Source of the DNA: Polyangium fumosum
Lineage (GTDB): Bacteria > Myxococcota_A > Polyangia > Polyangiales > Polyangiaceae
Direction: 5' to 3'
NCBI RefSeq assembly: GCF_005144585.1
Contig: NZ_SSMQ01000057.1
Span: 1-64,000, forward strand
DNA: 64,000 nt
Shown: in pieces, positions 49,986-64,000 of the stretch
How positions within the stretch are numbered: position 1 is the stretch's first letter
Layout of the letters: every line of letters starts with the position of its first letter
Notes under the pieces: generated by a model
The model's database searches: none
Seen by the model: the letters and a program-made list of their open reading frames with translations, nothing else
What the model was told of the DNA's origin: nothing
Translations under genes and position numbers: made by a program

Positions 49986-50419
49986 GGCGCCGCGTTACCA
50001 GGGCGCGGCCTCGATGGGAAGTCGGGACGATGCGCCGGCGCGGCTTGCCGTGAGGGCAAAAAAAAGTCGCGCAGCGCACCGGTTGGGGGGGGCGGACCGG
50101 CACGCGCGCGACGAGTTGGAGTGTGACACCCGCGCGCTCCTTGTCGAGCGCAAGTGCGCGACTCGTGCACGGAAACGACGATCGACCGGGCCGATCCGAC
50201 AGGTCTGCACGGTCACCTCGCCGCCGGGGTGGCTCCGTCATGCGCAGTCGTTGTGCTCAGGACTACGTGACGACGGAAGAGGGCGGAGCGGGCAGAACCG
50301 AGCCTTTCGCAACGTGATGCGTGGTCGCTCCGCGGGCCGGCCTCCAAACGGCGTTCGAGGCTCGACCGGAACGCAACCGATCTTGTCCCCGCGTGCGTCT
50401 CGGGGTGAAACTGCCGGGT
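49986..50419. other. Divergent intergenic region, enoyl-CoA hydratase and STAND gene
   Basis: 434 bp with no supported gene. Codon positions in the frame continuing upstream from the STAND gene lose GC bias before 50420 (about one third of third positions are A or T), so it is not coding. It contains an A8 run (50058-50065), a G-rich tract (50084-50092) and an imperfect palindrome around GAGCGCAAGTGCGCGAC (50148-50164). No convincing -35/-10 pair was found. Confidence 0.5.
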
Positions 50420-52897
50420 ATGGTCCTTACCAAGGCCGGTCTGAACCGGCTGCTCGCGGAAGTCCTGCCTCAAGACGCAGACGTCGAAGCGTTCGTCGCA
50501 CAGAACTTCGGCACCATCGCCCGGCGCGTCGCGCGCGGAGCCGATCGGGCCGGCAAGATCGCGCTCCTCGTGGACAACGCCGATCTCAAGGTTCTGCTCG
50601 ACAAGATCTCCGGCGCGCACCCGGTCGCCGTCGCTCGGAACGAGCACCTGCTCGCCGAGGACAAACGGGTCGCCGGAACGCCGGTGCCCGACGCAGGACC
50701 CTGCGTAGGTCGGGACGCGCTCCTCGCCGAGCTCGCGGCGCACGTCCATCGCGACGCGCCCGGGCCCGTGCTCCTCGTCGGCGACGCGGGCCTCGGCAAG
50801 ACGACGCTCGCGCTCGCGCTCCTCCACGCGGACGCGTCCGTCCGTCGCTTCGGCGGCCGCAGGTACGTCGCGCACCTCGACACGGCGGCCGACACCGAAG
50901 CGGCAGTCGTCGAGGTCAGCCGCGCCCTCGGCGTCACGCCCGAGGCGCCGCTCCTCAACCGCATCGCGGAGGCGCTGCGCCGCGCGCCGGCCTTGATCGT
51001 CCTCGACGATCTCGACGTGCCCCTCGCGAAGGACCCCGCGAACGTGCGTGACCTTCTCCAGAGGCTCACGGCCATCCCCGGCGTCGCCGTCATCGCCACC
51101 TCGCGATCGAGCGTGGCGCCGCCCGACGGCTTCCACGTCGCCGCGGTCAAACCCTTCGACGAGGCCTCCGCGCGGGCCGCGTTCCTCGCGATCGCCGGCG
51201 ACGCACGCCGCTCTGATCCGGGCCTCTCGTTCGCGCTCACCGAGGCCGCGGGCAATCCCCTCGCGCTCGCCTTGCTCGCGCGCGCGGCTGGTGACGGTCC
51301 GCTCGACCTCGCGGTCCGCGCCTGGCACCAGAAGCAGAACGAACTGCTCATGCGCGAGGACGGCCCCGAGTCGGCGAGCGCCATCGAGATCGCCGTCGCG
51401 CTCGCGCTCGCGAGCGGCCGCCTCTCGGACGAAGCGCGCCGCCTCGCGCCGCTCTTTGCTGCGCTGCCGAACGGCGTCCGCGCCGAGGACCTCGCGGCCT
51501 TCGCGTCCTCGGGCACCGCCGACGCGGGCGTCGCGCTCGTCGCCCTCGGCCTCGCGCAGGATGCGTCGGGGCGCTCCCGCTTGCGCCGCGCCGTGCGTGA
51601 GGTCGTCGCCTTGCAGCGTCCTGGCGCTGAGGAGTCGGCGAAGGCGACGCAGAGGTACACTGGCCTCGCGCTCTCGAACGGCCCGAACGTCGGATGGCCG
51701 GCGGGGGACGAGAGCGCGGTGCGCCTCGCGGCGGACAGCGACAACATCGAGGCGATGATCCTGCGTGGCATCGACGGCCCGCACCGCATCGCGTGCATCG
51801 ACGCGTCCGTCGCGCTCGCCACGTTCATCGGCTCCTCGGGCCACTGCACGCCGCGCGTCGTCGAGCGCGCGCGCGACGCGGCGCGAGAAGGCGGCGACAA
51901 GCTCGGCGAGGCCGACTGCACGCAGGCACTCGGCGACATCGCGCTCGCGCGTGGGGAGGTCGACGAGGCGCGCGCGCGGTACCTCGACGCACTCCCGCTC
52001 TTCCACCAGGCGCGCGCGGGCCTCAGCATCGCGGCGTGCCTCATGCGCCTCGGCGACATCGCGAGCGAGCGCGACGAGTACGACGAGGCGAAGCTCCGCT
52101 ACACCGACGCCGCGCCGTACTACCGGCACATCGGCGACAAGCTCGGCGAGGCCAACTGCCTGCGCAACCTCGCCGAGATCGCGGCCCTGAGCGACAACTA
52201 CGAGGAGTCGCGCGCGCGGTACAAGGAAGCGCTGCCGATCTACAACGAGCTCGGCGACAAGGTGGCGAGCGCGACCTGCATGAAGGGCATCGCGGACATC
52301 GCCTTCCAGGGCACGCAGTACGACGAGGCGCGTGCGCTCTACCAGGAGGTCGGCCCGCTCCTCGAAGAGCTCGGCGATCGCCTCTCGATGGCGCAGTGCC
52401 TGCAGAACCTCGGCGACATCGCGTTCGCGCTCGGCGAGCACTCCGTGGCCGAGAAGCATTACCAGAAGGCCCTGCCCATCCTGAAGGAGCTCGGCGACAA
52501 ACTCGCCGAGGGCACGTGCTTGTCGACCCTCGGCGACGTCGCGCTCGCGTGCACGGAGATCGAGGACGCGCATGCGTACTACCTCGCGGCGCTCCCGCTG
52601 CTCCGCGAGGTCGGCGAGAAGATGGGCGAGGCGAACTGCATCCAGAGCCTCGGCGACATCGCGCTCACGCAGTTCGAGCACGACGCGGCACGGTCGCATT
52701 ACGAGAACGCCCTCAGCCTCTTCTCGGCCCTCAAGGACGATTACTCGATCGGCTGGACGCATTACCGACTGGCCCAGGTCGCCGCGGACCCAGACATCTT
52801 CAAGAACCACCTCTACGCGGCGCGCGACGCCTGGCTGCGCATCGGTCGTCAGGACCTCATCGACGACGTCAACACCGAATTCCCCGGGATTCTCTAG
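50420..52897 (+). CDS. STAND NTPase with death-like adaptor domain and C-terminal TPRs
   Basis: 825 residues from ATG 50420. An N-terminal helical domain (about 2-65, LNRLLAEVLPQDADVEAFVAQ, then RVARGADRAGKIALLV) resembles the bacterial effector-associated/death-like domains described by Aravind and co-workers. A short linker with VGRDALLAEL leads to the NB-ARC-type ATPase: Walker A GDAGLGKTT (about 121-129), Walker B ALIVLDDLD, and sensor VIATSRSS. About 500-800 are roughly eight TPRs of 40 residues with the repeated LGDKLGEAxC and LGDIAL motifs. Such proteins are signal-activated switches in defence, cell death or regulation. No effector (TIR, nuclease, protease) is fused or adjacent. Longer starts upstream lack coding bias. 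Confidence 0.85.
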   Translation: MVLTKAGLNRLLAEVLPQDADVEAFVAQNFGTIARRVARGADRAGKIALLVDNADLKVLLDKISGAHPVAVARNEHLLAEDKRVAGTPVPDAGPCVGRDALLAELAAHVHRDAPGPVLLVGDAGLGKTTLALALLHADASVRRFGGRRYVAHLDTAADTEAAVVEVSRALGVTPEAPLLNRIAEALRRAPALIVLDDLDVPLAKDPANVRDLLQRLTAIPGVAVIATSRSSVAPPDGFHVAAVKPFDEASARAAFLAIAGDARRSDPGLSFALTEAAGNPLALALLARAAGDGPLDLAVRAWHQKQNELLMREDGPESASAIEIAVALALASGRLSDEARRLAPLFAALPNGVRAEDLAAFASSGTADAGVALVALGLAQDASGRSRLRRAVREVVALQRPGAEESAKATQRYTGLALSNGPNVGWPAGDESAVRLAADSDNIEAMILRGIDGPHRIACIDASVALATFIGSSGHCTPRVVERARDAAREGGDKLGEADCTQALGDIALARGEVDEARARYLDALPLFHQARAGLSIAACLMRLGDIASERDEYDEAKLRYTDAAPYYRHIGDKLGEANCLRNLAEIAALSDNYEESRARYKEALPIYNELGDKVASATCMKGIADIAFQGTQYDEARALYQEVGPLLEELGDRLSMAQCLQNLGDIAFALGEHSVAEKHYQKALPILKELGDKLAEGTCLSTLGDVALACTEIEDAHAYYLAALPLLREVGEKMGEANCIQSLGDIALTQFEHDAARSHYENALSLFSALKDDYSIGWTHYRLAQVAADPDIFKNHLYAARDAWLRIGRQDLIDDVNTEFPGIL

Positions 52898-55981: not shown

Positions 55982-56818
55982 TTGGACTTCCTCCAATCCC
56001 TCTTCGTCTGGGCGAACCTCCCCTACGCCATCGTATTCACGGTCGCGATCCTCTTCGCGCTCCTGCAAATGACGGGCGTCCTCGGCCTGCTCGTCGGCGG
56101 CTCCGATCACGATGCCGACGCGGACGCCGACCACGACGCGGACGTCGACGCCGACGCTGATCACGACCTCGACGCGGACGCCGATCACGACCACGACCAC
56201 GACGCCGACCACGACCACGACGCGAGCCTCGGCGGCAAGATCCTCGTCGACCTCGGCGCCGGCCGCGTCCCGTTTTCGGTCCTCTGGCAGACCTTCGCCG
56301 TCACCTTCGGCATCACCGGCCTCGCGCTCAACACCCTGTATTTCGGCCGCGCCGGCGTCCTCGCGCCCTCGACCCTCGTGTTCAGCCTGCCCGCTTCACT
56401 CCTCGTCGCTTACCTCGTTACGCGCACGGCCTCGCGCGTCCTCGGCAAGGTCGTCGCGCCGGCTGGCGAGGAAGCCACGAGCCGCAGGAACCTCGTGGGC
56501 TGCTCGGGTGTCGTCATCTCGACCCGCGTCACCAGCGAATTCGGCGAGATTCGTGCCAAGGACCGGGCGGGGCATTTCGTGCACGTCATCTGCCGCATTC
56601 GTGAGGGGGAACCCGTCCTCGGCGCCGGCCGCGAGGTGGTCATCGTCGATTACGACAGCAAGGACGGTCGCATCTTCGTCGCGCCGCTCGACGACGACGA
56701 CGCGCCGCCCGCGCCCGCGCTTCGCATCGCGGGCGATACGCGGGCCGAAAGCGAAGCAGAGGTTGAAGCGGAGGCCTCGGAAACAAAAGATACCACCCAC
56801 GTACGTCGCGCGCCCTGA
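55982..56818 (+). CDS. YqiJ/NfeD-like OB-fold membrane protein with Asp/His-rich loop
   Basis: 278 residues from TTG 55982, with GAGG 8 nt upstream. Longer frames lack coding bias. Helix 1 is about 12-38. Residues 41-80 are almost entirely Asp, His and Ala (HDADADADHDAD-type), likely a metal-binding loop. Helices follow at about 100-125 and 130-150. The C-terminal domain (about 165-240) has LVGCSGVVISTRV and GAGREVVIVDYDSKDGRIFV, an OB-fold like NfeD/YqiJ. YqiJ-type proteins are encoded beside the flotillin YqiK, as here (99 nt upstream of it), and are thought to act with it at membrane microdomains. The tail is acidic. Confidence 0.82.
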   Translation: MDFLQSLFVWANLPYAIVFTVAILFALLQMTGVLGLLVGGSDHDADADADHDADVDADADHDLDADADHDHDHDADHDHDASLGGKILVDLGAGRVPFSVLWQTFAVTFGITGLALNTLYFGRAGVLAPSTLVFSLPASLLVAYLVTRTASRVLGKVVAPAGEEATSRRNLVGCSGVVISTRVTSEFGEIRAKDRAGHFVHVICRIREGEPVLGAGREVVIVDYDSKDGRIFVAPLDDDDAPPAPALRIAGDTRAESEAEVEAEASETKDTTHVRRAP

Positions 56819-56917
56819 GCGGGCGAGCGCGTTCTCTCTTGCCATGGCCCCCTGCGAGGCGGTCTCATCGACCGGCCGCGTTTGCGGTGGCGTATTCTTG
56901 ATCGGAGCATCCGAGCC

Positions 56918-59092
56918 ATGCCTCAGCTCTTCCAGAAACCCGAGTTTCAGTTATTCGCCCTCGGGACGGTCGGCTTCCTGGTCCTCCTCGTCGCCTTCTT
57001 CGTCACCCTGGCGAAGTTTTATCGACGTTGTGGCGCGGACGAGGCCCTCGTCCGCACCGGCGCCGGCGGCAACAAGGTCGTGATCGGCGGTGGTATCACC
57101 GTCTATCCGATCCTCCACCAGCTCCTGCGCGTCTCGCTCCACTCGATCAAGCTCTCCGTCGAGCGCTCGGGCAAGAACGCCCTCGTCACGCGGGACAAGA
57201 TCAAGGCCAACGTCACGACCGAGCTCTACATCAAGGTCGAGCCCATCGCCGAGGACGTCCTCGCCGCCGCGCGTTCGTTCGGCGAGCGAAACTTCGACGA
57301 GCAGGCCATCGGCGACCTCATCGAGGGCAAGCTGACCGACGCCCTCCGCTCCGTCTCGGCGAACCAGACCTTCATGGAGCTGCACGGCCAGCGCAAGCAG
57401 TTCGCCGAGCACATCCAGAGCACGCTCTCCGACGAGCTCAAGAAAAACGGCCTCACGCTGGAGAACGTCTCGATCACCGCGCTCGCGATGGTCCCCGTGA
57501 AAGAACTCGACCCGCAGGACGTCTTCGACGCCGAGGGCCTTCGCGCCATCACGGACAGCGTCCAGTCGAACGCCGAGCAGACCACGAAGATCCAGCGCGA
57601 AAAAGAGCTCGCCATCCAGCTCACGAACGCCGAGGCGAAAAAACGCGCCCTCACGATCGAGCAGGATCAGAAGCAAGCCGAGGCCGACCAGGCCCGCCGC
57701 GTCTCCGAATACGCCGCCACGCAGAAGGCCGAGACCGCGAAGGCCGTCTACGTCCAGGAGCAGGCCCAGGAGCTCGCCGCGCTCGAAAAACGAAAGGCCA
57801 CGGAGACCGCGCGCATCCAGCAAGAGCAGGCGATCGCCGTCGCCGAGGCCGCGCGCCAGCGGGGCCAGCGCGAGGCGCAGATCGCCGCCGAGAAGGCGCA
57901 GCAGGCCGCCGAAATCGCTAAGCAGCGCGAGATCGAGGCCTCGATGATCGAGAAGGAAAAGGTCGTCCAGGCCGCCGAGGTCGATCGGCAAAAGGCCCTC
58001 GAAACGGCCTCGATCGACAAGCAAAAGGCCGTCGAGAGCGCCGAGATCGTCAAGCAGCAGGCCGTCGAGACCGCGCGCATCGCCAAGCAGATCGCGGTCA
58101 CGCAGAGCGAAGAGCAGGCCGCGCGCGCCGCCGCCTTGAAGGCCCAGGCCGAGGCCGAGCAGCAGCAAGCGATGCAGGGCATCATCACGGTCGAGGAGAC
58201 CGCGAAGGCGAACCGCGAAAAGGCCATCGCCGTCATCAAGAGCGAAGAGGACGCGCAACGCTCGCGCATCGCCGCCGAACGTGAGGCCTTCAAGCTCAAG
58301 CTCGAAGCCGAGACGCAGGCCGCCGCGCTCAAGGCGCACGCCGAAGGTGAAGCCGCGGTCAAACGCGCCGCGGCCGAAGGCGAGATCGCCCGCGCGCAAG
58401 GTCTCGCCCAGGCCCGCGAGCTCGAAGCGCAGGCGAACGCCAACGTCATGCGCAAGGGCGCCGAGGCCGACGGCGACCGCGTCCGCATCTCCGCCGAGGC
58501 CAAGGCCCAGGCCGCTTCGCAGGAAGCGCAGGCCTTGATCGCCCTCGCCGAGGCCACGCGCAAGAAGGGCGAGGCCGAGGCCGACGCCAAGCGCAAGCTC
58601 GTCGAGGCCGAGAACGCCGTCGCCACGAAGTTCCTCCTCCGCGACGTCGCCGTCAAAGCGCTCGACGTCCTGCCCGCCGTCACCCGCGAGCTCATGACCC
58701 CGGCCCGAGCCATCAGTGAGATCAAGGTCCTCCAGCTCCAGGGCACGGGCGGCGGCGCCGCGACGAACGGCGAGGGCGCCCCGAGCGCGCCCTTCGGCAA
58801 CGTCGCCTCGCCCGTCCTCAAGACCATCCTCGAAGCGGGCGCCGCCTACCCGCTCCTTCGCGAGATGCTCGCCTTCTCGCAGGTCGACGAGCGCGGCCTC
58901 GCGGACAAGGCCCGCTCCTTCCTCGCCACGCTCCCGACCGAGCTCCGCGCCGTGATCGACAAAGACCCCGAGCTCGCGAAAAAGCTCGACGATCTCGGCG
59001 TCGCCCGCGCCGCGTCCTCGGGCGCCGGCATCCAGGTCCACGAAGTCGCCCCCCCGACCATCCCGCCTGCGGCCCCGCTCCCGGGCGAGTGA
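56918..59092 (+). CDS. Flotillin family protein (YqiK-like)
   Basis: 724 residues from ATG 56918. An N-terminal membrane helix (about 12-33) precedes the SPFH/band 7 domain (about 35-215: GADEALVRTGAGGNKVVIGGG, NALVTRDKIKANVTTELYIKV, and LENVSITALAMVP). A coiled coil of about 380 residues, rich in Ala/Glu/Lys/Gln with regular EKEKVVQAAEVDRQKALE-type heptads, follows. A flotillin C-terminal region (about 590-700) with LLREMLAFSQ and Pro-rich tail ends it. Flotillins form large oligomers that organise lipid microdomains. The gene is followed after 4 nt by a channel-like gene and preceded by the OB-fold partner. Confidence 0.92.
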   Translation: MPQLFQKPEFQLFALGTVGFLVLLVAFFVTLAKFYRRCGADEALVRTGAGGNKVVIGGGITVYPILHQLLRVSLHSIKLSVERSGKNALVTRDKIKANVTTELYIKVEPIAEDVLAAARSFGERNFDEQAIGDLIEGKLTDALRSVSANQTFMELHGQRKQFAEHIQSTLSDELKKNGLTLENVSITALAMVPVKELDPQDVFDAEGLRAITDSVQSNAEQTTKIQREKELAIQLTNAEAKKRALTIEQDQKQAEADQARRVSEYAATQKAETAKAVYVQEQAQELAALEKRKATETARIQQEQAIAVAEAARQRGQREAQIAAEKAQQAAEIAKQREIEASMIEKEKVVQAAEVDRQKALETASIDKQKAVESAEIVKQQAVETARIAKQIAVTQSEEQAARAAALKAQAEAEQQQAMQGIITVEETAKANREKAIAVIKSEEDAQRSRIAAEREAFKLKLEAETQAAALKAHAEGEAAVKRAAAEGEIARAQGLAQARELEAQANANVMRKGAEADGDRVRISAEAKAQAASQEAQALIALAEATRKKGEAEADAKRKLVEAENAVATKFLLRDVAVKALDVLPAVTRELMTPARAISEIKVLQLQGTGGGAATNGEGAPSAPFGNVASPVLKTILEAGAAYPLLREMLAFSQVDERGLADKARSFLATLPTELRAVIDKDPELAKKLDDLGVARAASSGAGIQVHEVAPPTIPPAAPLPGE

Positions 59093-59096
59093 ATCG

Positions 59097-59651
59097 ATGA
59101 CCCCGCCTCGCCGAGATCCGGACGAAGTCGCGCTTTCTGCGCTCGCGCAGATCGCGCGTGGCCTCGTCTCGACCCCGGGCGCGCAGGGCGGCGCGCTCGG
59201 GTATGGCACGTGGAAGCAAGGTTTTCGCGAGCTCGTCCAGCGGGATGCGCTGGACACGCTTCTCGTCTCCGTGCTTGGCGGCGCCTACCTCTTTTGGCTC
59301 GCCGAGAAAGACAAGAACCCGCGGTGCCGCACGTTCTGGGACGCCGCGGTGTTCGTCTCGACCTGCCTCTCTGTGGGGTACGACAACAAATTCGCGCAAA
59401 CCGAATCGGGCAAGGCCCTCGCGACCTTCCTCATGACGTTTGGCCCGAGCGTCGCGGCGAACGCGTTCGCCCCGCCCGCCGCCGCGCAGCAAAATTCCGT
59501 CGGTTCGCCCACCAATGGGCCCAACGCGCAGGTTTCCGTCGACACGGCGGAGTCGATCGCCCTGCAAAAGGCCATTCTCGCGCGCCTCGACGCGATCCTC
59601 GCCGAGCTCCAGTCCGCCCGTCCACCGTCCGAGAGAAACGTGCGGGGCTGA
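59097..59651 (+). CDS. Two-TM potassium-channel-like membrane protein
   Basis: 184 residues. Helix 1 is about 52-69 (LDTLLVSVLGGAYLFWLAE). A pore helix and filter-like loop (FWDAAVFVSTCLSVGYDNKF, 80-99) and helix 2 (about 104-124) follow. The TM-pore-TM layout and S-V-G-Y-D match the ion-channel signature TVGYGD, but the second filter Gly is missing (SVGYDN), so selectivity is doubtful. The C-terminus (about 148-176) is predicted amphipathic helix, a possible tetramer coil. The start is 4 nt after the flotillin stop, so the two are surely co-expressed. It could be a divergent cation channel or a non-conducting relative. Confidence 0.75.
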   Translation: MTPPRRDPDEVALSALAQIARGLVSTPGAQGGALGYGTWKQGFRELVQRDALDTLLVSVLGGAYLFWLAEKDKNPRCRTFWDAAVFVSTCLSVGYDNKFAQTESGKALATFLMTFGPSVAANAFAPPAAAQQNSVGSPTNGPNAQVSVDTAESIALQKAILARLDAILAELQSARPPSERNVRG

Positions 59652-59746: not shown

Positions 59747-61156
59747 ATGACGTTTACTGCGACGCACGGATCCGGAAGGCATGCCATCGTCATTGGGGGT
59801 GGTATCGCGGGCCTCTCCGCCGCGCGTGTGCTCACCGAGCATTTCGACCGCGTCACCGTGCTCGAGCGCGACAAACCGCAGAGCGGCGCCGAGCACCGCG
59901 CCGGCGTCCCCCAGGCCCGGCACGTCCACATTCTCCTCGCGGGCGGTGAGCAAGGATTGGAAGCGCTCTTCCCGGGGCTCCGCGAAGAGCTCACGGCGGC
60001 CGGGGCGCCGTGGGGCGACTATGCCGGCACATCGCTCATCAATTTTCCGATATTCCGCCTGCCGCATTCGACGAGCGGCGTCGAGGTGAGCTTCGCGAGC
60101 CGCCCGTTTCGGGAGTACACGATGCGGTGTCGGCTCGAGCGTGGCGGCCGGGTCGAGTTTCGTCATGGCGTCCAGGTGAAGGGCCTCGTCGGCGAGGGTC
60201 ACGGGGTCTCGGGCGTCAAGATCCGCGACAGCCGTGGCGAGGACGTCTTGCGGGCAGACTTCGTGGTCGCGGCGTGCGGCCGCGAGGGCCGGGTGGACGA
60301 GTGGCTCGCGGAGCTCGGCTACTCGACGCCGCGCGAGGAGACGGTCGACGCGGCCCTGTCTTATTCGACCCGCTGGTATCGTGGTCCTCGTAGCCTCTCG
60401 CGGTACAACCTCGTCGTGGACCTCCCGACCCCCCCGGATCTGCCGCGGGGCGGAGGCTTCATGTCGTGCGAGGACGGCAAGTGGTTCGTCACGCTGATGG
60501 GCATCGCGGGCGAACGCGCGCCGCTCGACGAAGAGGGATTCAACGCCTGGGTCCGCAACCTGCGATTCCCCGAGGTATGGGATCTCGTGCAGAAAGCCGA
60601 GCCGGCCTCTCCGATCTATGGCTCGGCGAAGACGGAGAACCGGCACCGCCATTTCGAGGAGCTGAAGCGCTTCCCGGACCGCTTCGTGGCGCTCGGCGAC
60701 GCGGTCGCCTCGTTCAACCCGATGTATGGCCAGGGCATGACGATGGCGGTGCTCGGCGCGATGGAGCTCGCGGCCTGCCTTGCGGAGCAACGCGAGCGCA
60801 TTGGCGGCCCGAGCCTCGTGGGGTTGTCGCGCCGATTCCAGCGGCGCCTCGCGCGGGTCCTGCAATCGGTGTGGGGAATGGCGATCACCGAGGATTTTCG
60901 CTGGTCGGCGACGCGGGGCGAGCGCCCCGGGGGGATCAGCCGGGTGGTGGGGAAGTACATGGACGAGCTCATGAATACAGTCCCGGACGACGAGCTCGTG
61001 TTCCAGAAGTTCGTCCGCGTGCAACATTTGCTGGACCCGGTTTCGGCGCTGCTCGCGCCGGACGTGGCAGGACGGGTCATCGAGAGGGCGACGCGGCCCG
61101 TGCGGGCGGGGGTGCGTGAGGTGGTGGGAGGGCTCGTGCAGCAGGTGGGCGGGTAG
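59747..61156 (+). CDS. FAD-dependent monooxygenase / oxidoreductase
   Basis: 469 residues from ATG 59747, with a strong GAGGAGG 8-9 nt upstream. The FAD dinucleotide motif is AIVIGGGIAGLSAARVL with the acidic end of strand 2 (VTVLERDK). VPQARHVHILLAGGE carries the Arg-His region of the 2-polyprenyl-phenol/PHBH-like group. The second FAD motif is FVALGDAVASFNPMYGQGM. Members hydroxylate or epoxidise aromatic or isoprenoid substrates. The GVPQxRHxH signature is common in geranylgeranyl-reductase-like and squalene-epoxidase-like enzymes. The substrate is not evident. It is 95 nt after the channel-like gene and could be separately transcribed. Confidence 0.87.
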   Translation: MTFTATHGSGRHAIVIGGGIAGLSAARVLTEHFDRVTVLERDKPQSGAEHRAGVPQARHVHILLAGGEQGLEALFPGLREELTAAGAPWGDYAGTSLINFPIFRLPHSTSGVEVSFASRPFREYTMRCRLERGGRVEFRHGVQVKGLVGEGHGVSGVKIRDSRGEDVLRADFVVAACGREGRVDEWLAELGYSTPREETVDAALSYSTRWYRGPRSLSRYNLVVDLPTPPDLPRGGGFMSCEDGKWFVTLMGIAGERAPLDEEGFNAWVRNLRFPEVWDLVQKAEPASPIYGSAKTENRHRHFEELKRFPDRFVALGDAVASFNPMYGQGMTMAVLGAMELAACLAEQRERIGGPSLVGLSRRFQRRLARVLQSVWGMAITEDFRWSATRGERPGGISRVVGKYMDELMNTVPDDELVFQKFVRVQHLLDPVSALLAPDVAGRVIERATRPVRAGVREVVGGLVQQVGG

Positions 61157-61204: not shown

Positions 61205-62554
61205 TCATTCCTTCCGGACCAAAAACGCCGCCACGAAATACCCATCCGTCCCCTGCACGTGTGGCAGGAGCCGGAAGCTCGTCGCTCCCTCGCTCAGGAT
61301 CTCCCGCGGAAGCTCCGCCTCGATCGGCTGTTTTTCCAGCCGCACCCCTGTGCCCGACGGCTCCCCCGCGAGCCGCTCGACCACCTCCTCGGCCTCCTCC
61401 CGCAGCACGCTGCACACCGCGAAGACCAGCCGCCCCCCGTCCTTCACCCGCGTCGCCGCGCTCCGCACGATCGCAATCTGCAGCTCCGACAAACGTTTCA
61501 CGTCCTCCGCCGTCCGCCGCAGCGCGATCTCCGGCCGCCGCCGCAGCGTCCCCACCCCCGAGCACGGCGCGTCCACGAGCACCCGGTCATAATCGCGCGG
61601 CACCTCCTCGAACGACCCCGTCCGCGCCGCCCAGTCGACCGCGTACGCAGCCCGTGCCCCGCGCCCCGCTGGCCCTTCCTTCAACCGTTCGAGCTTCGCC
61701 GCATAGAGATCCGCCGCATCGACCGCGCCCTCGGGGCCCACCTCGTCCGCGAGCAGCCACGTCTTGTTTCCTCGCCCCGCGCAGGCGTCGAGCACCCGCT
61801 CGCCCCGCCGCGCCCCGAGCGCGAGCGCCACCACCTGCGCCCCTTCCTCCTGCACGATCCAAGCCGTCCCCGCGCCCGGCAACCGCCGCACGTCCCCGGC
61901 CCCGCGCACGAGGATCGCCCGCGGCGAGGCGTGCCCCTCCTCGAATGTGCCTTCTGGACAAACCTCCCGCAATCGCGCGACCCACGCCGCCCGATCCTCC
62001 GAAAGCGCGAGCGACAACCCCAGCGGCGGCGGCACCGGCCCGGCCGCGAGGTAAGCCTCCGCCGCGCTCCGCCCGAGCGATCGACGCAGCGATCCTCGGA
62101 GCCACCCCGGCGCCGACGCGCTCGCCGCCTCCATCAGCGACGGCCGCCCCTTCGCCTCGACCTCCGCCGCGAGCTTGCGCAAAATCGCATTCGCGAACGA
62201 CCCCGTCCGCACGTCCCCCTCCGCGCGGATCGCCCCCACCGCCTCGTTCACCGCGGCGAACGCCGGCACCCGATCCAGAAAGCAGATCGCATACGCGGCC
62301 ATGAGCACCTGCGCCCGCGCGATCGGCGACGGCAGGTCGAGCCTGTTCTTCGGCGTCAATGCCGAAAGCCTGACGACAAGCGCGGCTTCCGTCCGCAAGA
62401 CCCCGTACACGAGCTCGGTCGCGAGCCCCGCGTCGCGTGGGTCCATTCCGGACCGCCGTCCGAGCTCGGCGTCGAGCGCCGCGGCCGCGAACGCCTCCGC
62501 GCTCCACACCCGCGCGAGCACCCGCGCCGCGATGAGCCTTGCTTCGCTAATCAA
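61205..62554 (-). CDS. rsmB: 16S rRNA (cytosine-967-C5)-methyltransferase RsmB
   Basis: 449 residues. The N-terminal NusB-like domain (about 1-140) has RDAGLATELVYGVLR and RVPAFAAVNEAV. The RsmB/NOP2 methyltransferase domain follows, with the SAM-binding VLDACAGRGNKTWLLAD and two catalytic Cys motifs, VLVDAPCSGVGTLRRRPE and LVFAVCSVLREEAEEVV. The second is usually TCS and is VCS here, with the Cys kept. The C-terminal DGYFVAAF is typical. It methylates C967 of 16S rRNA. Its ATG overlaps the end of the upstream rseP by 8 nt, so the two are translationally linked. Confidence 0.94.
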   Translation of the reverse strand: MISEARLIAARVLARVWSAEAFAAAALDAELGRRSGMDPRDAGLATELVYGVLRTEAALVVRLSALTPKNRLDLPSPIARAQVLMAAYAICFLDRVPAFAAVNEAVGAIRAEGDVRTGSFANAILRKLAAEVEAKGRPSLMEAASASAPGWLRGSLRRSLGRSAAEAYLAAGPVPPPLGLSLALSEDRAAWVARLREVCPEGTFEEGHASPRAILVRGAGDVRRLPGAGTAWIVQEEGAQVVALALGARRGERVLDACAGRGNKTWLLADEVGPEGAVDAADLYAAKLERLKEGPAGRGARAAYAVDWAARTGSFEEVPRDYDRVLVDAPCSGVGTLRRRPEIALRRTAEDVKRLSELQIAIVRSAATRVKDGGRLVFAVCSVLREEAEEVVERLAGEPSGTGVRLEKQPIEAELPREILSEGATSFRLLPHVQGTDGYFVAAFLVRKE

Positions 62555-64000
62555 CGAGCTCCCTCAACTGCCCTTGGATCACGTCCCACCGTCGCTCCAC
62601 GTCATTCTTGAACGCCACCCCCATCAATGCAAAGAGCACGAGCAGGCCCACGAGGCTCGCGATCTCCCGCACCCGCAGCGGCAGAGGCCGCCTCGACACG
62701 GCCTCGAACAGGAAAAACAGGAGATGACCGCCATCGAGCACCGGGATCGGGAGCAGGTTCACGAGCCCGAGGTTGATGGAAATCACAGCCATCGCCCACA
62801 CGAAATACGAGACGCCCTTCGAGCCCTCCTCGCCGACCACGTCGTAGACCGTGATCGGCCCGCCCAGCGTCGAGATGCTCACCTTGCCCTCGACGATCCG
62901 CACGATCCCCACCACGATGAACCGGATCACGTCGTACGTCTCGTCGAGCGCGCTCCTGAGCGCGAATGGCAAGAGCGACGCGTGCTCCACGTACGCCTCC
63001 GGCACCACCGGCGACCAGTTCGACGCCCGCACGAAATAGCGCGGCCGGTGCTGGCCGTATTCGTCGATCCAGTCCTCGCGCCGCAGCAGGATCGTCCCGC
63101 TCTTCTTCACCCCGCCCCGCAGCCACGTCACCATGTGCGGCCGATCCGGCGCCACGAGCAGCCGTTCGAGGAACGTCGCCCACGCCGTCACCACCGCCTG
63201 GTCCACCTCCACGATTCGATCGCCGGGCCGCATATCGGCGTTCCATTCCGCCGAACCCTCCGCCACGTCGAATACATAAAGGTCCGCCGATTCGAGCCCC
63301 GTCCGCGACTCCAGATCGCCGTGCCCGCTCGCCTCCGGCGTCAGCGCCGCCACGCCCGACTCGTACACGGCCATGTCCGCGAGCCCGCCGAACGCGCGTG
63401 GCACCTTCACCGGCCGCAAATACGTCACCGGCACCGTCTCGCCGTGGTTCTCCGACAGCGCCGTTTCGAGGTCCGCGAACGTCTTCACCGGCCGCCCGCG
63501 CACCTCCGTCACGAGGTCGAACGTCCGGAGCCCTGCGCGGTAGGCCGGCGAATCGGGCCGCGAAATCCCCACGACGGCCGCGGGCCGGCTCGGCTTGATG
63601 CCGATTTCGCCGACCTTCTCCACGATGTCGAGCGGCTTCCGGACGACCTTCTCCTCCGGCACCACCACGACTTCGACGTGCTCGTTGTTGCGAAACACCT
63701 TGAGCCGCAGCTCTTTGCCGGGGCTCTCCCCGATGATCCGCGCGAGCTCGGCGAACGTCGAGATTCGCTCGCCGTCCACCTCGAGCACCCGATCGCCCGG
63801 CGTGAGTTTTCCCTCGGCCGGATGTCCGGGCAAAACGAAGCCGACCGTGGGGGGCGAAAAACGCGTCTCCCCCACGAAAACGGAGAAATAAAGGAGAACC
63901 GGGAACAGGATGTTCATCGCCGGGCCCGCGATGACGATGATCACGCGTTTCCAGAGCGCCTGCGCCTCGAACGTACGCTTGCGATCCTCGGGCAGCACCG
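62547..64000 (-). CDS. rseP: RIP metalloprotease RseP, N-terminus beyond the window
   Basis: 484 codons are visible. The first ~60-100 residues, including the HExxH zinc site, lie past position 64000. The visible part starts within the family segment LPEDRKRTFEAQALWKRVIIVIAGPAMNILF (shown by FEAQ, WKR and the GP.MN.LF motif). Two PDZ domains follow (about 55-130, PGDRVLEVDGERI, and about 140-265, with MRPGDRIVEVDQ). The last part holds membrane helices with LGLVNLLPIPVLDGGHLLFF, the second zinc-ligand Asp motif. It would cut an anti-sigma factor within the membrane. The central PDZ part is longer than in E. coli. Confidence 0.92.
   Translation of the reverse strand, partial: VLPEDRKRTFEAQALWKRVIIVIAGPAMNILFPVLLYFSVFVGETRFSPPTVGFVLPGHPAEGKLTPGDRVLEVDGERISTFAELARIIGESPGKELRLKVFRNNEHVEVVVVPEEKVVRKPLDIVEKVGEIGIKPSRPAAVVGISRPDSPAYRAGLRTFDLVTEVRGRPVKTFADLETALSENHGETVPVTYLRPVKVPRAFGGLADMAVYESGVAALTPEASGHGDLESRTGLESADLYVFDVAEGSAEWNADMRPGDRIVEVDQAVVTAWATFLERLLVAPDRPHMVTWLRGGVKKSGTILLRREDWIDEYGQHRPRYFVRASNWSPVVPEAYVEHASLLPFALRSALDETYDVIRFIVVGIVRIVEGKVSISTLGGPITVYDVVGEEGSKGVSYFVWAMAVISINLGLVNLLPIPVLDGGHLLFFLFEAVSRRPLPLRVREIASLVGLLVLFALMGVAFKNDVERRWDVIQGQLRELVD

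Follow-up and report, generated by a model that had tools for sequence, protein, structure and literature searches.

A flotillin module of Polyangium fumosum and its phylum with a potassium-channel-like third partner

We analysed a stretch of 64,000 nucleotides from Polyangium fumosum (RefSeq assembly GCF_005144585.1, contig NZ_SSMQ01000057.1, positions 1 to 64,000 of the forward strand; hereafter the window), and in particular the three genes between positions 55,982 and 59,651, which encode a YqiJ-like membrane protein, a flotillin and a small channel-like protein. The genes follow each other in this order on the + strand, with intergenic gaps of 99 and then 4 nucleotides, and constitute one operon-like module; a direct reading bore out the order, coordinates and gaps given in a preliminary description of this DNA. 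At the limits searched, the flotillin and the channel gene are each present once in the genome (12.98 Mb in 201 contigs). The features of the module are:

55982..56818, + strand: YqiJ-like (NfeD/YuaF-type) membrane protein, 278 amino acids, TTG start (Pfam YqiJ_N, match to YuaF 2k14, conserved 5' of flotillin)
56105..56224, + strand: Asp/His loop of 40 residues (42-81), separating the first and second hydrophobic stretch of the YqiJ-like protein (direct reading, compared across relatives)
56918..59092, + strand: flotillin, 724 amino acids (Pfam Flot, NCBIfam FloT, match to human flotillin-1)
59097..59651, + strand: channel-like protein of the flotillin-associated family, 184 amino acids (Ion_trans_2, KvAP profile match, predicted fold, neighbourhood)
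59247..59306, + strand: predicted outer helix TM1, residues 51-70 (AlphaFold2 model, DSSP)
59334..59372, + strand: predicted pore helix, residues 80-92, shorter by one residue than that of ordinary channels (AlphaFold2 model, sequence comparison)
59370..59384, + strand: filter S92-V-G-Y-D96, T-V-G-Y-G in potassium channels (sequence comparison)
59403..59471, + strand: predicted inner helix TM2, modelled at residues 103-123 and taken here to 125, followed by Pro-Pro (AlphaFold2 model and sequence)
59442..59447, + strand: Gly116-Pro117, invariant in 68 of 68 distinct sequences, in the presumed position of the gating-hinge glycine (sequence comparison)
59532..59618, + strand: predicted C-terminal helix, residues 146-174, possibly a coiled coil (AlphaFold2 model)

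The first two genes encode a pair of a known kind. The YqiJ-like protein combines a YqiJ_N membrane part (1.2e-10; 42.1 bits against a cut-off of 23) with a C-terminal OB-type domain, the corresponding part of the YqiJ profile matching the solved YuaF domain 2k14 (1.9e-4), and like other YqiJ/YuaF (NfeD-type) partners it is encoded directly 5' of a flotillin. The latter has the SPFH domain and the flotillin C-terminal region of the SPFH2 type: Pfam Flot matches residues 532-651 (6.7e-21), the NCBIfam FloT model matches residues 23-286 (3.4e-15, far under its 700-bit equivalog cut-off), the flotillin profile recovers human flotillin-1 (1.4e-6) and Pfam Band_7_1 stays below its cut-off. Such NfeD-flotillin operons, with the partner directly 5' of flotillin, have been described for YqiJ-YqiK and YuaF-YuaG (Hinderhofer and others 2009, PMC2636767, in the part available). 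The window module differs from these by its third, channel-like gene; the available text of that article makes no use of the word channel.

The third protein is a relative of potassium channels, as judged by sequence comparison. Pfam recognises Ion_trans_2 in the window protein at 2.3e-5 (24.6 bits against a cut-off of 22.5) and 27 of the 28 family members scanned match it individually (E <= 0.01). A phmmer search with the window protein recovered KCNQ2 (0.0012) and, more weakly, KcsA, and a profile of 28 relatives recovered KvAP (5.6e-9) and KCNQ2 (1.2e-8). The AlphaFold2 models reached a mean pLDDT of 70.6 with 28 sequences and 77.8 with 69, the latter model having ten-residue block means of 81-94 over residues 61-120 (filter block 81). 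The TM-pore-TM arrangement claimed in the preliminary description reappears in the monomer model as a fold of two helices and a pore loop, for which Foldseek gave KcsA as the top match (8.3e-4) and VIA-align gave Kv4.2 (Z 12.5, 77 residues, 2.1 A) and KCNQ4 (Z 11.8, 71 residues, 1.5 A), values to be read with the caveat that a Z under about 13 can mean a common arrangement for helical models. The predicted fold is that of a P-loop pore and the sequence that of potassium-channel kin. The protein has the succession of TM1, pore helix, filter and TM2 of a classical potassium channel, as do the pore domains of KcsA, KvAP and KCNQ; the family differs from these by the lack of TVGYG and of a voltage sensor, by the shorter pore helix, by a Gly-Pro hinge and by a short inner helix. 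NCBIfam and Pfam scans recognised no gating domain in the channel protein.

The filter of the window protein, SVGYDN, aligns with TVGYGD of potassium channels, and its alteration, which the preliminary description had also noticed, is real and family-wide. Among 68 distinct sequences the filter has Ser in 66 (for Thr), Val in 66, Gly in 68 and Tyr in 61, and the second glycine is lost in 67, its position being occupied by Ala (20), Asp (19), Ser (17), Cys (5), His (3), Thr (2), Asn (1) or Gly (1); the signature T-V-G-Y/F-G with both glycines, typical of classical potassium channels, is absent from the window protein. Between the pore-helix Asp and the filter Gly there are 11 residues in all 72 family frames, versus 12 in five of five ordinary channels. 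A Gly-Pro pair is found in 68 of 68 sequences, 20 residues after the position of the second filter glycine; its equal spacing to the filter suggests that it is the equivalent of the potassium-channel hinge glycine, which was placed by the KcsA numbering. The inner helix ends soon after this hinge, with Pro there in most members. The ratio of nonsynonymous to synonymous substitution rates (dN/dS) of the channel gene, in five Polyangium comparisons, is 0.22-0.31 overall, 0.06-0.13 in the pore core (residues 39-127), 0.15-0.57 in the N-terminal 38 residues and 0.34-0.58 in the C-terminal part. Since the core is under such strong purifying selection, the changed pore is being maintained and does not decay; conservation within the family is highest in the pore helix and in the filter letters that remain. 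A chance reading frame is ruled out by these ratios and by the recurring pairing with yqiJ and flotillin described below. One outlying relative (L061:5044-5739, genome G204, 67 bits) has a still more altered filter (TLTVG followed by a gap) and its flotillin lies on another contig.

The extent of the family was determined by profile surveys covering the window's own phylum. The class survey yielded 78 members in 76 of 317 genomes, each of at least 114 bits, with the next match at 55 bits; in the phylum survey of 377 genomes, 27 had members of at least 137 bits, followed by the outlier of G204 at 67 bits and by ordinary channels at 55 bits or less. By these sequence scores the channel-like proteins are a distinct family. 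The dedicated third partner with an altered filter that the preliminary description had proposed indeed exists and is conserved beside flotillins, as 61 of the 78 class members (in three gene orders) and 23 of the 27 phylum members adjoin yqiJ and/or flotillin. Those 61 comprise 48 with a flotillin match within 3.5 kb by coordinates, the members of G565, G566, G567, G435 and G418, which come from fetched loci, and eight beside yqiJ with flotillin farther away or on another contig (G523, G524, G061, G556, G561, G543, G545, G546); for eight of the 61 (G481, G539, G548, G573, G420, G479, G551, G549) the support is by coordinates alone. The channel of G066 sits beyond the ATPase of its flotillin operon. 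A match to the flotillin profile (E <= 1e-20) was found in 76 of 76 channel genomes (the weakest, in G523, at 2.0e-28) versus 67 of 241 channel-less genomes of the class (Fisher 1.6e-33, a value that ignores descent), and about half of the flotillin-bearing genomes of the class carry the family. As a control, none of 90 weaker, ordinary channel-like matches lies within 30 kb of a flotillin match, 34 of these 90 being in flotillin-bearing genomes. That the genes are neighbours by chance is ruled out by the conservation together with this control (three measurable pairs). A broader scan of genome contigs, which used short peptides of the window channel protein only, recovered only three Polyangium loci (84-88% identity), and tblastn found no match to the channel protein in 72,556 plasmid records.

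The module occurs in two architectures. In type 1, that of the window, the order is yqiJ-flotillin-channel (29 class members and one, G265, of the wider phylum); in type 2 the channel gene is 5' of yqiJ, with 15 cases co-oriented and 17 divergent. A large AAA+ ATPase with a DUF3686 domain (5.3e-195, plus AAA, in Pfam) follows flotillin in 18 of 26 fetched type-2 loci, the other eight having no ATPase in view, partly because the flotillin or the contig ends out of view, and in none of 28 fetched type-1 loci. DUF3686 is absent genome-wide from 25 of 30 type-1 genomes and lies beside a second flotillin in the other five (G539, G515, G583, G586, G328); it was found in 11 of 11 other genomes tested (nine of type 2, G066 and the channel-less G582). 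The window's genome gave no DUF3686 match in a search that was positive in 16 of 41 genomes. We chose 38 flotillin loci from channel-less genomes or contigs: 35 hold yqiJ, 26 the ATPase and none a channel-family frame (E < 0.01). The channel is therefore an added, non-fixed part of the operon. Clustering of the neighbouring frames in search of a fourth conserved gene gave only the DUF3686 ATPase as widely recurring, in type-2 and channel-less loci. The channel tree requires several gene-order changes, with closeness to the module retained; the count of 14 such changes is a rough figure, one locus (L161) having been labelled B though its order is yqiJ-flotillin-channel, and the tree group orph including five loci with the module only partly in view (L039, L053, L054, L131, L144). 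One genome (G515; L159, L160) carries both types, its two channels being in different parts of the tree.

Several observations on these operons stand apart from the channel itself. The DUF3686-AAA+ ATPase, of about 1,900 amino acids, regularly follows flotillin in the phylum (L179:9066-14999 and 44 further loci); Pfam names it as a DNA-repair ATPase, a role not suggested by its position in a membrane operon, and DUF3686 is unmentioned in the open-access literature of PubMed Central (PMC). In one genus an extra frame (L058:8263-10038, with relatives in L157, L158 and L190) is found between yqiJ and flotillin or nearby, and two loci (L169 and L170, in G355 and G177) have a high-scoring flotillin and yqiJ with neither channel nor ATPase in view.

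YqiJ-flotillin pairs are in print, as the preliminary description stated, and so are YqiJ-flotillin-AAA+ ATPase operons. In the portion available of a study of PspA-linked operons (PMC11237479), a YqiJ/YuaF protein, a Band-7/flotillin protein and a large AAA+ ATPase are encoded together, as in type 2 here, the ATPase being presumably the same, while type 1 is without the ATPase; the only potassium channel named in that portion, one with ligand sensing, belongs to a different group of PspA-linked operons, and no small pore gene beside yqiJ-flotillin is described. No description of the yqiJ-flotillin-channel triad was found in searches of the open-access literature (PMC). Measured against that literature, the module is real and conserved, its scaffold is ordinary and its channel-like partner is new and unusual.

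We consider it an even prospect, on the sequence comparisons and models, that the third protein is a flotillin-scaffolded, potassium-channel-derived tetrameric cation pore that lies in a flotillin microdomain and has a selectivity differing from that of potassium channels. By analogy with solved SPFH cages, flotillin would build a scaffold in the membrane, with YqiJ as its usual NfeD-type partner. The third protein would be the pore subunit, four copies of which probably assemble within the flotillin microdomain or against it; the pore would let monovalent cations through with a selectivity altered relative to classical potassium channels, and flotillin, with its lipids, would anchor the pore and determine its activity, in much the way that eukaryotic stomatins do for other channels. 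Caging of the channel by flotillin, physical contact and control are thus suggested by analogy. Stomatins regulate ion channels (PMC12344292, as far as available). SPFH scaffolds reportedly bind or tune channels in the pairs of stomatin, MEC-2 or STOML3 with DEG/ENaC, ASIC or Piezo and of flotillin-1 with TRPV2; these pairs differ from the window module in being eukaryotic, in involving unrelated channel families and in having no operon. Flotillins and HflK/C form cages, and a membrane protease is enclosed by HflK/C (PMC11260169, in part). A bacterial parallel is the FArhodopsin (PMC10308929, in the sections available), an ion-transport-family membrane protein with altered key residues that is paired with flotillin in one transcript; it differs in being a rhodopsin rather than a P-loop channel, in its marine lineages and in its gene cluster. 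In Bacillus, channel-mediated potassium efflux feeds a membrane kinase (PMC3667857, in the part available, where the terms flotillin and lipid raft are absent).

Several points weigh against a flotillin-bound cation pore. Glutamate-receptor pores also match the P-loop fold, so that the fold alone names no ion, and loss of the second glycine could abolish potassium selectivity or conduction. Sixteen of the 78 class members are apart from flotillin and yqiJ in the region seen (G576, G577, G578, G580, G482, G483, G484, G485, G139, G513, the C35 copy of G583, G584, G520, G521, G099, G333). Flotillin is independent of the channel, because 67 of the 143 class genomes with a flotillin match have no family member. 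The ordinary-channel control is limited by fragmented assemblies to 3 contig-sharing pairs, all more than 1 Mb apart.

The best-surviving alternative, which we regard as possible and do not favour, is a tetramer of channel fold that does not conduct and serves as membrane anchor, lipid organiser or sensor of voltage or membrane state for the flotillin scaffold. The lost second glycine, the pore helix that is one residue short in every frame, the early end of the inner helix with its Pro and the lack of a recognised gating domain would fit such a role, but the family conserves most strongly the pore helix and what remains of the filter, with the low dN/dS of the core, and KtrB and TrkH conduct potassium with a single glycine per pore loop (PMC5449183, in the part available). 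The latter share with the channel family the one conserved glycine per pore loop and differ in being single chains of four repeats, where the family has one repeat per chain; KtrB/TrkH gave no sequence match among the matches listed for the window protein or the family profile.

It is improbable that the protein is a generic small potassium channel that merely travels with the operon and has no functional contact with flotillin. The sixteen members elsewhere in their genomes and the differing gene order between lineages could be explained in this way, but the order was rearranged several times and closeness was kept, a flotillin match is present in every channel genome, and none of the 90 ordinary channel-like matches is near a flotillin.

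The preliminary description had also linked the module to metal sensing, with the Asp/His loop in the YqiJ-like protein as the candidate site. The loop of the window has 21 Asp and 8 His; across 24 order-A loci its length and letters vary, with 10 to 24 Asp and 0-8 His, two of these loci (L059, L167) having no His at all, and the loops of many other members are mostly Asp/Gly/Ala (Gly/Ala/Asp repeats). No conserved metal-ligand pattern was found in the loop among the loci compared, the letters and His count varying widely, and composition is taken to account for its weak matches to Sdr/Clf adhesins, metal transporters and ZnT7. A loop much like that of the window is present in a locus without a channel-family gene beside it (L203), and because of this and of the drift in length and letters the loop belongs to the YqiJ family rather than to the three-gene module; by this evidence it is a variable low-complexity spacer. 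It would be cytoplasmic if the OB-type domain is so, as usual, and the protein crosses the membrane three times. A device in which the loop binds metal and controls the channel via flotillin would suit the many Asp and His of the window but is very improbable given this drift and the channel-less locus, and metal sensing as a conserved feature of the loop is ruled out by the drifting letters and length.

The surroundings of the module in the window comprise the following. A gene for an FAD-dependent oxidoreductase (59747-61156, from the GGGIAGLS start) lies 95 nucleotides 3' of the channel gene; this gene and the two genes upstream of the module are kept in five Polyangium loci compared and were not found in six other type-1 loci compared. 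On the - strand there are a frame for a NusB/RsmB-type rRNA methyltransferase (61205-62554; Pfam) and, overlapping it by 8 bases, a frame that by eye resembles a PDZ site-2 protease (62547-63998). An 858-amino-acid protein (50321-52897) has, by eye, an ATP-binding motif followed by TPR-like repeats and is perhaps a STAND-type signalling ATPase. An anti-phage defence system was considered for the module and ruled out, none of the three proteins matching a family of the PADLOC models at E <= 0.01.

Tentatively, the family may represent a dedicated bacterial flotillin channel, with single-glycine P-loop pores of their own selectivity that would be held and gated by flotillin cages and that would have been fitted in two ways, in the 3' slot otherwise belonging to the DUF3686 ATPase or before yqiJ, the ion pore taking the ATPase's place as the working component of the scaffold in some lineages. 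A partner of channel fold that is adjacently encoded in many genomes, apparently never without flotillin, is a direct candidate client of bacterial flotillins. If the proposed pore is real, it would connect bacterial flotillins with ion flux, in parallel to the link between stomatins and channels in animals, and would give studies of ion selectivity a naturally occurring family of one-repeat pores with a single glycine.

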